A DNA stretch of 64,000 nt from positions 1 to 64,000 of the forward strand of contig PUDQ02000088.1 in assembly GCA_002964805.2 (NCBI GenBank), written 5' to 3'. Every line of letters starts with the position of its first letter. Positions within the stretch are counted from its first letter, which is position 1. The DNA is from Trametes villosa. Lineage: Eukaryota > Basidiomycota > Agaricomycetes > Polyporales > Polyporaceae. Of this stretch, positions 2,735 to 8,286 are shown piece by piece. Both the position numbers and the translations under genes were made by a program. Below the pieces are notes generated by a model. That model did not search any database, had not been told where the DNA came from, and saw nothing but the letters and a program-made list of their open reading frames with translations.

Positions 2735-2881
2735 TTCTGCAGTAAGTAATGGGCTGGGGTTAGATGGTGGTGGTAAGAGGATAAGAGAGGTAAGATTAGA
2801 GTTCAATAGAAGCTTAGTCTGTATAGTAGCCAAATATAAGCAAACAAGTAGCCACCTGACTAATATCACAGGTTGTGATCA

Positions 2882-3116
2882 TTGAGGGCAGATTGCCCTC
2901 AAGTGTCACAGAAAGTGACACAAGCTGATCACATGATGTCTGATGGCATCATCAGATCAGGTGTGATGTGACAGTTGAGGGCAGATTGCCCTCAATGGTC
3001 ACAAAAAGTGACACAAGCTGATCACATGATGTCTGATGGCATCATTAGATCACTTGAGCCTCAATGACATCATCTGATCAGGTGTGATGTGACCATTGAG
3101 GGCAGATTGCCCTCAA
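2882..3116. repeat. Tandem palindromic repeats (TTGAGGGCA-N3-TGCCCTCAA)
   Basis: The 21-base palindrome with 9-base arms occurs at 2882-2902, 2975-2995 and 3096-3116, with a decayed copy near 3391-3410. The spacers share GTGTCACA...GTGACACAAGCTGATCACATGATGTC and TGATGGCATCA-like palindromes (written here as short words). No coding potential is visible. Confidence 0.75.
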
Positions 3117-3187
3117 GTGTCACAAACATGACAGGTGATGTGACTGACCCTTCCTGCCAGGCAGGGTCAGTCACAGGTTGTCACACA

Positions 3188-3380
3188 GGGGTGACGGTCC
3201 ACAAGAATCTTGTGGACTGTCACTCCCCTGTGACAGGAAGCACATGACCTGTGACTCACATCCACCCTTGCTCTATGTGAGTCACAAGTTGTGACTCACA
3301 TCGACCCTCGCTCGATTCTGGTCACGTCACTGGTAACAGGGGGGTGACGGTCCACAAGATTCTTGTGGACCGTCACCTCT
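3188..3380. repeat. Two further copies of the GTCCACAAGA hairpin repeat
   Basis: Copies lie at 3191-3223 and 3343-3377, each within CAGGGGTGAC...GTCAC(C)CCTG flanks, so the full stem is longer than in the outer pair at 571-698. Between them is a CACAT(C)GACCC...CTCG repeat. Confidence 0.75.
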
Positions 3381-3512
3381 CTGTGACAGGTGAGGACAGA
3401 TTGCCCTCAATGGTCACGTCACCTCTTGCTTAAGGCTTGCTCGTCGTTGCTGTAGGCTAGCAAGATATAAAATCATGAAAGTGAGTGCATTTTGAAGGCT
3501 GATTGATCAGCT

Positions 3513-4876
3513 ATTATATAGACCCTTGACCATGACCAGTTGCCCATATTAGAAGAGGCAGGTAGAGGGCACGCAGGGGGCACGCAAGGGGCACGCAAGG
3601 GGCATGTCTGTACGTGCCCCCGATTGTGAGACGATGGAGGCAGCTATCAGCATAAAATAAACTGCTGTGTGTAGCCCTGATGTCGCCCTGACATACTTTG
3701 AAGACAGCTAAGTGATTGGTCGAGTGGTTGGGCCACAATCCAGGGGGCACGCCAAGGGCACGCAGCTAATACGGGGGCACGCAGGCACGTGCCCCCGATT
3801 GTGACACAACCGCTGCACCTATGAACACGAAACAAGATGCATTCTGTAGCCCTAATATGGAGCTAATATACTTTGAAGACAGCTAAGCGATCGGCTTAGC
3901 AGTTGTCCCATAAAATGCAAGGCACGCACGGGGGCACGCAAAGGGCACGCAGGGGGCACGCAGGCACGTGCCCCCGATTGTGGGACAACCGCTGCACCTA
4001 TTGACACGAAAACACTTGTGTTCTGTAGCCTTCATATGAACCTAATATACTTTGAAGACAGCTAAGCAATCGGCCAAGTGGTTCTGTCACAATCCAGGGG
4101 GCACGCAGGGGACACGCAGGGGGCACGCAGGGGCATGCCGGTACGTGCCCCCAATTGTAAGACAACCAATGCACATATGACCTGCAAATGACTTGTGTTG
4201 GGTGGTCCATATGTCGGCCCAATATACTTTGAAGACAGCTAAGCAATTGGCTCAATACTCGGCTCACAATCCAGGGGGCACGCAGGGGGCACGCAGCCAA
4301 AGTGGGGGCATGCAAGGGGCATGTGCACACGTGCCCCCAATTGTGGGACGATGGAGGCAGTTATCAGCATGAAGTAAGTTGCTGTGTGTAGCCTTGATGT
4401 ATCCCTAACATACTTTGAAGACAGCTAAGCGATAGGCCAGATGGTTGGTCCACAATCCAGGGGCACGCAGCCAAAATGGGGGCACGCAGGGGACATGCGC
4501 ACACGTGCCCCCAATTGTGGGACAATGAAAGCAGATATTGTCGTGAACCAAGTTGCTATATGTAGCCCTTATGTATCCCTAACATACTTTGAAGACAGCT
4601 AAGCAATCGGTCCAGCGGTTGTGCCACAATCCAGGGGGTACGCAAAGGGCACGCAGCAAATACGGGGGCACGCAGGCACGTGCCCCCGATTGTGACACAA
4701 CCGCTGCACCTATTGACATGAAACAAGTTGTGTTCTGTAGCCCTAATATGGAGCTAATATACTCTGAAGACAGCTAGGCAATCGGCCCAGCGGTTGTCCC
4801 ATAAAACGCGGGGCACGCACGGGGGCACGCAAAGGGCACGCGCAGGATGCGCATCCTGCAGGTGTTATATAGATAG
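3513..4876. repeat. Minisatellite, ~178-bp unit, seven copies
   Basis: The box TACTTTGAAGACAGCTAAG recurs near 3693, 3869, 4048, 4225, 4411, 4586 and 4760, giving a period of about 175-186 bp. Each unit also carries GGGGCACGCA runs, the near-palindrome GCACGTGCCCCC(A/G)ATTGTG and TGTAGCC(C)T. Both edges carry TATATAGA-type boxes (about 3516 and 4864). Long open frames in the array arise from the repeats and are not taken as genes. Confidence 0.85.
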
Positions 4877-4905
4877 GTATGCGGTTAGTTTCACGTGATA
4901 AGGTA

Positions 4906-4988
4906 GGCGCTTCTTTAGCACGGTCTATGCAAACCGTGTGAACACAGAGAAGCGCCCTAAGTCCAGGCGTCTCTTTAATTAGACGCGC
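4906..4988 (+). other. Two consecutive stem-loops downstream of a TATA-like box
   Basis: At 4906-4956 an outer stem GGCGCTTCT / AGAAGCGCC encloses an inner stem CACGGT / ACCGTG. At 4966-4988 a second stem pairs GGCGTCT with AGACGC. They lie about 40 bp downstream of TTATATAGATAGG and could be the 5' part of a structured transcript. Confidence 0.5.
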
Positions 4989-5056
4989 CTGCCCGTATGG
5001 GGCATAGTCCAGAAGGGGAACCGTTCACGTACCTCCTTCTTTGGGTACAAGGGATC

Positions 5057-5084
5057 ATGTAAGCGATCAGCTGATCGCTTACAT
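5057..5084. repeat. 28-bp perfect palindrome
   Basis: The half-site ATGTAAGCGATCAG is followed at once by its exact reverse complement with no loop. Part of it (CATGTAAGCG) recurs near 5219. Confidence 0.8.
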
Positions 5085-5287
5085 AAGTAGTGCATCGTCA
5101 TACTGATTACCTCGCCGGGCCGAGGTGTGTGACGACGGGCCGAGCTTTAGTAATCAGACCTATGTCAATGGGAAAGTTCCCGTTGCCATCGGACCGGCAT
5201 CAAAGATGCCGGATACTTCATGTAAGCGTTATCACGCATCACAGAGGCCGTAGTTCCGGCCGTGATGCCGGGTGAACTCTATCGGAT

Positions 5288-5369
5288 GAACTGTACAGGA
5301 CCTGATGAGACCCTATAAAGTCGAAACAGGGCGGGATGGAATGATCTCCATCCCCTGTCGTCCTAGTTC
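5288..5369 (+). ncRNA. Type I hammerhead ribozyme
   Basis: All core elements are present in order. The stem I 5' strand is GAACT (5288-5292), a GTAC bulge, then AGGAC (5297-5301). The core CTGATGA is at 5302-5308. Stem II is GAC (5309-5311) / GTC (5320-5322) with an 8-base loop, and GAAA follows at 5323-5326. Stem III pairs 5326-5329 with 5355-5358 and 5333-5340 with 5347-5354, leaving a GGC bulge and an ATGATC loop. The cleavage triplet GTC ends at C5359. The stem I 3' strand is GTCCT (5360-5364) then AGTTC (5365-5369), matching both stem I segments. The open helix is stem I, so it is type I. The bulge in stem I opposite loop II is the usual place for the tertiary contact of natural hammerheads. 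Predicted self-cleavage is after C5359. Confidence 0.9.
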
Positions 5370-5424
5370 GACTACCACTCGTCGTCGTCGTCGCACACCT
5401 CGCTTCGCTCGGTGTGCTCCTCCT

Positions 5425-5439
5425 CCCTAACCCTAACCC
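5425..5439. repeat. Interstitial telomere scar
   Basis: CCCTAACCCTAACCC occurs in the same orientation as the terminal array, 5.4 kb inward. It sits exactly where the structured, ribozyme-bearing segment ends and low-complexity A-rich sequence begins. It marks a likely former chromosome end. Confidence 0.85.
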
Positions 5440-5880
5440 ACCCAAAAAAAATCAGGAGACATGCTCCTCCTCACTTGCGCACATTTCCCCCCCTCAAGCG
5501 CCCAATTGTGATCGTGGTGGTTTGAAACTTCCAGTGTACCTCCCTATGGTATATATTTACCCTCTCCCAGCTTTGTGGGATTCAGTGGCCAACCAGTGTG
5601 TAGGAACACATCATTTTATGCGTGGTTGCTGCCCAGGACCATAGCTCCAAAACTGGTTCGCCGATTTTGCTCATTTTCTGCACAGGGCCTCCTTTATATA
5701 CTATATACATGCTCCCAAAATTTCAGAGCCAAATTCCAACCCTGCCCTGTAAGACCTCTTACAAAAATGAGTCTAGATCCCGTACTATATAGTGCTATGT
5801 AAACAGGGTGTCGCAATGGTGCAATGGCGACTCTGTAGACTCTGTAGCACTATATTGCAAATGGAGGTTTTCCTGATGTT
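5440..5880. other. Non-coding sequence, no gene seen
   Basis: AT-richer sequence with short imperfect direct repeats (GACTCTGTAGA/CTCTGTAGC near 5830 and CAAAA/CCAAAATT words). No credible reading frame or RNA gene. Confidence 0.5.
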
Positions 5881-7150: not shown

Positions 7151-8286
7151 TGCCCTGCCCTGCCTCAGCAGCGTGAACGAACGCTCCTGGCGGCCAGTTG
7201 CTGCGACCTGTCAGCTCGTCTTGGTCGTTTGTAGGCTGCCAGCTCGCGGTCGCCGTCTCCTCAATCTGCACGGGCCGTTGCGGTAAGTTCTACAGATCTG
7301 TATCGTGCTCAAGTTCAACGCAACCACCGTACTCACCGTACGTCGTACGTCGCTCGACTGCCACCCCAGGGAACACACCGCTCCTGCCTACAGTGTCGAC
7401 GGGCCGGAATCCAGCTCCTCAGCACTAAGGCTCCACGCCAGAGTCCCCAGCCGGCCCGGCACCGCCAACTTCACTCACTCATCCTCGGCTTGTCACCTTA
7501 GAGATGAAGACGCTCAAAGCGCGAAGTCTCCCGAGAAGGTCGTACCGCAGCACTTGACAAGGAAGTGCACGCGCAGAAAAGGCAAGATGGCGGGGGCCTA
7601 CACCCACAACCCTCGCGTACTTCGACGTAAGTACCCTCGTTGAGGACGGGTCGTCTTCCATGCCGCGCCTCCCCACGACCCTGCACGGCGTCTTCGAGAG
7701 GACAGAGATATAAAGGCGTACCGCTCGGAGCGTTCCCCTCGCCGCTTCCGAGCACAGGCTATCGCTAACACACTTACCGCCTCGCATGCTCTGTAGGCAG
7801 ATTCCCTGGCGTGTCGTACTGCGTAGAACAAATGCGCAGACGCGCCATCGACCCGATGAACCTTCTTCAAAGCGACGAGGGCATCCAGAGTCGCGCACGG
7901 ACCTCTCCCCACCAGTTGGAGCACACCTATGCACGGCGCCCGTCGCCATCGCAAGTGGGGGGCAGCAGCAACTCCCGTGCGCACCGCTTCCATTTCCGGC
8001 GAAGGAGGGAGCGATCCGCGCTCGCGCGACGTCCACGCCGTCCGTCGAAGCTACCGCAGCACACACCTCGCCGCGCCTCATGCCCGCCACGAGCACTCTG
8101 GGACGGGGGCGCGTCGCAGGGGATATAAGACACGCCGCGAACGCGAAGGGCTGGAAATCGCGGCTTGTCTCCTCCCCTCGCTCGTTCTCGCGCACTGCTA
8201 CAACCCCAGGCTGTTTAGACCCTTTCCCAAGCGAGCAACCGTTTTTCGACCAATCTTACGCGCCTCCTACACGAACCGTCCGCATC
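7151..8286. other. Upstream region of the dynamin-like gene
   Basis: GC-rich, with no convincing exon chain. The long antisense frame across 7479-8195 is Arg/Ser/Gly-rich with no recognisable motif and is treated as chance coding. TATA-like words occur at 7704 (GATATAAAGG) and 8118 (GGATATAAGA). Confidence 0.5.
8116..8126 (+). promoter_or_regulatory. Candidate TATA box of the dynamin-like gene
   Basis: GGGATATAAGA lies about 165 bp upstream of the chosen ATG (8287) in GC-rich surroundings. The distance suits a fungal core promoter with a short 5' UTR. Inference only. Confidence 0.35.

Follow-up and report, generated by a model that had tools for sequence, protein, structure and literature searches.

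A hammerhead ribozyme motif at the telomere-tailed 3' end of a probable Penelope-like element in Trametes villosa

The stretch of DNA analysed here (64,000 nucleotides (nt) of the Trametes villosa contig PUDQ02000088.1, hereafter referred to as the window) opens with CCCTAA repeats (1-155) and harbors, 5.3 kb further inward, a type I hammerhead motif, whose cleavage would be expected after C5359. The comparison of its copies makes it likely that this motif is the ribozyme module at the 3' end of a Penelope-like element that lacks an endonuclease and becomes attached to the ends of chromosomes and to breaks. The preliminary description of the window had reported a complete type I hammerhead at a fungal chromosome end; the hammerhead is indeed present in the sequence, but it is not a subtelomeric orphan, and it belongs to the 3' end of a retroelement. 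An orphan cellular ribozyme, or a cellular function in the subtelomere, was rejected because ten copies sit in this mobile 3' end. The main features, all on the forward strand, are the following:

4865..4876, forward strand: end of a subtelomeric satellite block, TTATATAGATAG, abutting the 5' end of the segment
4877..5440, forward strand: 564-nt structured 3'-terminal segment of the putative Penelope-like element (11 copies; fold z-score)
5288..5369, forward strand: type I hammerhead motif, predicted cleavage site C5359^G5360 (pairs checked base by base)
5302..5308, forward strand: CTGATGA core (base-by-base check)
5323..5326, forward strand: GAAA core (base-by-base check)
5425..5439, forward strand: reverse-complement telomeric tail CCCTAACCCTAACCC (3' junction, compared over 11 copies)

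Structure of the motif

Hammerheads are recognized by a set of invariant core bases and by a cleavage triplet of the NUH type. The base-by-base check revealed that all the invariant bases are in place, as previously described (CTGATGA, GAAA, and the triplet GTC at 5357-5359), together with three stems, the ends of the motif lying in stem I. This stem consists of two segments (5298-5301/5360-5363 and 5288-5292/5365-5369) around the bulge already noted, which spans 4 nt (5293-5296) provided that A5297 and T5364 pair. Stem II is short (3 bp, 5309-5311/5320-5322), and stem III, which is interrupted by a 3-nt bulge, is made up of 5326-5330/5354-5358 and 5334-5339/5348-5353. Hence, all three stems are found, but the statement that they pair without compromise was slightly generous, since stem II has only 3 bp and stem III is bulged.

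A descriptor scan retrieved one match in the window (5288-5369), and no match arose when 150 windows of 64 kb were simulated; a conditional simulation with stems of such size (16 events in 400,000 trials) gave a chance expectation of 3.3e-4 per window and 0.24 per genome. The covariance-model check that had been proposed gave a poor outcome, in that no Rfam hammerhead model reached its gathering score on the window, the best being RF02275 (HH9) with 19.2 bits (E-value 0.06) against a cut-off of 52. When the whole genome was scanned, neither RF02275 nor RF00163 listed 5288-5369, each scan scoring part of its first-pass candidates. Judging from its sequence, the motif is genuine, with weak support from covariance models.

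Genomic copies and their 3' junctions

The genome (46.7 Mb, 140 contigs), one protein of which matches Trametes versicolor at 84%, harbors at least 11 copies of the 564-nt segment, i.e., that of the window, nine sharing 97 to 99% identity with it, and a chimeric one on contig C130 (81%); the search scores only the best candidates, and copy numbers are thus lower bounds. The hammerhead core is intact in 10 of the 11, a 26-nt core stretch being found exactly at 10 places on ten different contigs, with one hammerhead per copy. The ten near-identical copies differ at 38 sites (28 in 4875-5124 and 10 in 5125-5425), counted up to position 5425 in columns with at least eight letters among the ten, leaving aside C130 and single-copy insertions. 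Two of the sites fall within the hammerhead span, namely the bulge position 5293 and position 5365, at which T-G replaces T-A; the core is invariant. For nine of the 11 copies, the distance to a contig end is below 10 kb, and in six of these nine the 5' side faces the nearer end; a telomere array opens only two (C86 and C130) of the eleven stretches examined, not all of which extend to the contig end. In the C130 copy (L018 2020-2600), the first ~230 nt are nearly identical to the other copies and the remainder is ~30% divergent, which points to recombination or template switching inside the segment.

A retrozyme, i.e., a small circular RNA arising from two hammerheads in tandem or in flanking repeats, would also combine a hammerhead, here of type I, with a small size: the circles measure 600-1000 nt in plants and 170-400 nt in animals (PMC6155905 and PMC11722881, respectively). 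This alternative appears highly improbable, given that the ten copies on ten contigs have a single hammerhead each and that three copies are continuous with a reverse transcriptase (RT) element; it was rejected because the boundary formed by two hammerheads is absent.

At the 3' end of all 11 copies, a telomere-like sequence of the CCCTAACCC type is joined to unrelated DNA. In nine of them CTCCTCCTC is followed by CCTAACCC, by zero to two additional full repeats, and then by unrelated DNA; in place of CCTAACCC, C1 has TCTGACCC and C130 has CCTCCCTAACCGTAACCCC. The C1 letters belong to the target, whose uninterrupted version exists at window position 875 and on other contigs. The C80 copy is joined to satellite at CCCAGGATG, and the C82 copy to subtelomeric DNA at the word CACCCTAAA; on the C35 end, which is of like sequence, this word is separated from a telomere array by ~70 nt. 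The C88 copy carries three full CCCTAA units plus an incomplete one, none of which is found at the paralogous site on C80. These mixed 3' junctions are consistent with priming from 3' ends of several kinds (telomeric, healed by a telomere, or broken and G-rich), as described in PMC3846280 for elements that lack an endonuclease.

Two further observations concern these surroundings. The telomeric tail of the C129 Penelope-like copy adjoins a Copia-type open reading frame (ORF; RVT_2, L012 1394-5707) that runs on the opposite strand into the 3' end of the copy. Contig C35 (69 kb) contains an internal 120-nt TTAGGG array (L016 8467-8586), representing either a chromosome end fusion or an assembly join.

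The associated reverse transcriptase

Two copies of the segment extend upstream into a Penelope-like RT ORF and a third one into the same 3' untranslated region (UTR), at three different insertion sites. The possibility that the segment is a passively duplicated neighbor of the RT element was rejected, since the three copies linked to the RT or UTR have differing 3' flanks. The RT was assigned to the Penelope/telomerase type on the basis of its relatives and of conserved RT blocks, and its family is common to several basidiomycetes; 252 relatives were found and 120 of them listed, 26 and 36 of which, plus the ORF itself, form alignments A2 and A4, respectively. No GIY-YIG endonuclease was detected in the ORF, whose N-terminus is missing, nor in nine relatives, seven of which are 681 to 738 amino acids long. 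In the predicted fold of one relative (P0018, modelled in place of the truncated ORF), telomerases lead both structure comparisons with the PDB; a PDB sequence search with the ORF itself gave no match. When a longer relative was used to search the T. villosa genome for the missing half of the RT, the same two RT copies were retrieved and nothing further; likewise, in the search for related loci in viral_contigs and genome_contigs through alignment A2, none of the 22 and 92 pattern stretches, respectively, was confirmed.

Just upstream of the segment, the 3' UTR of the element contains degenerate telomere-like repeats (AACCCGAACCCTAACC, L014 7340-7478), which might be bound by telomere-repeat factors or represent a former boundary of the element.

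The 5' junctions and the neighboring satellites

In L014 coordinates, the 5' truncation points of the copies are 5592, 7279, 7486, 7489, 7512, and 7591, C82 reaching the contig end instead. For five copies the start is 7486, where they adjoin the satellite end TTATATAGATAG (C32 having the variant TTATATATTTAG); the C88 copy begins at 7489 and is joined to other DNA. Such a coincidence might suggest that the segment also exists by itself, as a non-autonomous RNA whose 5' end lies near 4877 and which is mobilised by the RT of the element. The starts of six of the ten copies with a determined 5' end fall within 3 nt and involve two types of junction (the five satellite ones and that of C88), the ends of the segment are predicted to pair, and its fold z-score is -10.4. 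Conversely, the five satellite junctions may have spread through recombination between chromosome ends, of which C130 is an example, and with six junction types a coincidence of such size has a ~4% chance according to an arithmetic done from the endpoints. Since five of the six copies may share one junction by recombination, only modest weight was given to the shared start, and a stand-alone RNA is considered rather unlikely. A search of Rfam for another ribozyme at the 5' end of the segment yielded no credible match up to an E-value of 3.

The satellite end itself deserves a description. TTATATAGATAG, located at 1310-1321 and 4865-4876 in the window, has 34 exact matches in the genome, versus five for the reversed pattern; several subtelomeric satellites that are otherwise unrelated have it as their fixed inner end, and one of three perfect palindromes (GCCACTGACGTCAGTG, GCAGGATGCGCATCCTGC, GCCAGATGCGCATCTGGC) mostly precedes it. 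It is fused to unrelated sequences, including Penelope-like copies, which it meets at five different points, and it may represent the terminus of a further element, either Helitron-like or of a type that adds to chromosome ends. At 1321, the satellite end terminates a gene fragment on the reverse strand (1325-2878) carrying an OrsD domain (PF12013 at 1325-2077). Sequence related to this fragment is found near a helicase ORF on C1 (L010), as in subtelomeric helicase families. Near-perfect palindromes around GACGGTCCACAAGATTCTTGTGGACCGTC are repeated in the subtelomere at ~560-720 and 2880-3400 of the window.

Predicted folding of the RNA and weighing of the evidence

The segment (4877-5440) is strongly structured (z-score -10.4 versus 100 shuffles), and in its predicted fold the following elements, all on the forward strand, are recognized:

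5319..5325, forward strand: competing helix, 5' arm AGTCGAA (in the full segment, pairs with 5367-5373 at a mean probability of 0.93)
5367..5373, forward strand: competing helix, 3' arm TTCGACT (predicted fold of the full segment)
5121..5138, forward strand: 5' arm of a predicted 18-bp helix enclosing the hammerhead domain (fold; inverted repeat I2)
5385..5402, forward strand: 3' arm of the same predicted helix (fold; inverted repeat I2)
4883..4888, forward strand: GGTTAG, close to the 5' end; predicted partner CTAACC in the tail (5433-5438; mean probability 0.92)

The 5' arm of the competing helix overlaps stem II, on its 3' strand, as well as the GAA of the GAAA core. The pairing between GGTTAG and CTAACC comprises 9 bp in the C130 copy, whose full length has a fold z-score of -4.1.

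Several observations weigh against a functional hammerhead module in an end-attaching Penelope-like element. In the predicted fold of the full segment, the helix 5319-5325/5367-5373 dominates and the hammerhead stems have near-zero probability; the fold constrained to the hammerhead lies above the predicted minimum by 4.3 kcal/mol in 5284-5373 and by 7.5 to 8.7 in longer RNAs (8.7 for 5284-5440), as computed with energy models that omit tertiary contacts and protein help. None of the 11 copies stops at C5359, and therefore the template RNAs that were copied were uncut there. The C130 copy lacks the CTGATGA and GAAA core and still has a telomere-like 3' end, and its matching stretch has no excess structure (z -0.6). 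As for the element, no full-length copy was found, one RT copy being 5'-truncated and the other interrupted by a contig end; the RT ORF has no Pfam match at an E-value of 0.01, RVT_1 is found in six of nine relatives but each time under the Pfam cut-off, and the Foldseek TM-scores to telomerase are only ~0.4, with group II intron RTs close behind. As for the attachment to ends, two copies (C1 and C88) are far from any contig end, no canonical telomere array is found at the 5' junctions that were determined, and the C32 copy enters a gene fragment resembling window position 1342, with no clear telomere-like word in the target.

Some of these data might be explained if the motif were a relic, or a chance look-alike, in a structured retroelement 3' UTR that acts through the competing hairpin and through the long helix around the hammerhead domain, self-cleavage never taking place. 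The strong preference for the competing helix, the retention of both its blocks (CTATAAAGTCG, AGTTCGAC) in C130 where the core is lost, the uncut templates, and the failure to meet any Rfam cut-off agree with this idea. However, such a motif is expected by chance about 3e-4 times per window, and the complete core is found in exactly the class of elements that carry hammerheads beside telomeric tails (PMC6431247); moreover, the energies come from the incomplete models mentioned above, and C130 is one copy. A relic is a possibility to be taken seriously, albeit the less probable one, and the ribozyme module of a Penelope-like element is still favored.

On the basis of this interpretation, the tail of the RNA would pair with the telomeric G overhang or with another G-rich 3' end, from which the telomerase-like RT would copy the RNA, adding a 5'-truncated copy. 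With less confidence, the hammerhead may be an accessory, dispensable for insertion, which might either cut the read-through RNA of an upstream copy or shape the 3' end. In a more elaborate and improbable scenario, the segment would constitute a separate template RNA that has a 5' end of its own, where GGTTAG pairs with the CTAACC tail, and that partners the telomerase-like RT much like telomerase RNA does; it would switch between a non-cleaving fold, copied onto chromosome ends, and the hammerhead fold, which would cut the tail off and end its use.

Comparison with known elements

The layout is the same in kind as that of Terminons, the telomere-associated Penelope-like elements of rotifers, whose 3' ends carry a hammerhead followed by reverse-complement telomeric repeats (PMC6431247, PMC12477314). 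Since that layout has already been published, the kind is known and the fungal member is new. The Terminons/Athena of bdelloid rotifers, which are endonuclease-deficient as well, share with the element of T. villosa the Penelope-like RT, the 3'-terminal hammerhead, the reverse-complement telomeric tail, the 5' truncation, and the attachment to chromosome ends. In contrast, 55 nt with a predicted hairpin (5370-5424) separate the hammerhead from the tail here, whereas the repeats of Terminons follow immediately; the hammerhead has a long helix III; giant multi-ORF units are not evident, the copies being 5'-truncated or interrupted by a contig end; and the 5' ends mostly adjoin satellite blocks rather than short telomeric stretches.

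The endonuclease-deficient Penelope-like elements of fungi (Coprina type) resemble the present one in their fungal host, in an RT family found in basidiomycetes, and in their attachment to ends or breaks. Cervera and De la Pena reportedly stated in a 2014 abstract that fungal and protist elements carry monomer-stable hammerheads. No description of hammerheads in fungal Penelope-like elements was found in the literature searched, which says little, the key papers on the subject being outside the search. Fungi are said to contain only endonuclease-deficient Penelope-like elements (PMC3846280). In the Penelope/Poseidon element PAc of Anolis, according to PMC11167929, it is mainly uncut RNA that is used in insertion, and cutting required an added protein; PAc is thus alike in having a hammerhead and in the dominance of the uncut substrate that the T. 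villosa copies suggest, and it differs in its GIY-YIG endonuclease, its pseudo-long-terminal repeats, and the overlap of its hammerhead with the start codon.

The role of hammerheads in Penelope-like elements has been termed a mystery in PMC7761336, and the uncut templates of T. villosa bear on this question. Eleven sites in a fungus display the layout of rotifer Terminons, with a built-in telomere-like tail near a hammerhead and an apparent attachment to ends or breaks, and the end-priming model can be tested directly on their junctions, among which that of C1 retains a mismatched primer.
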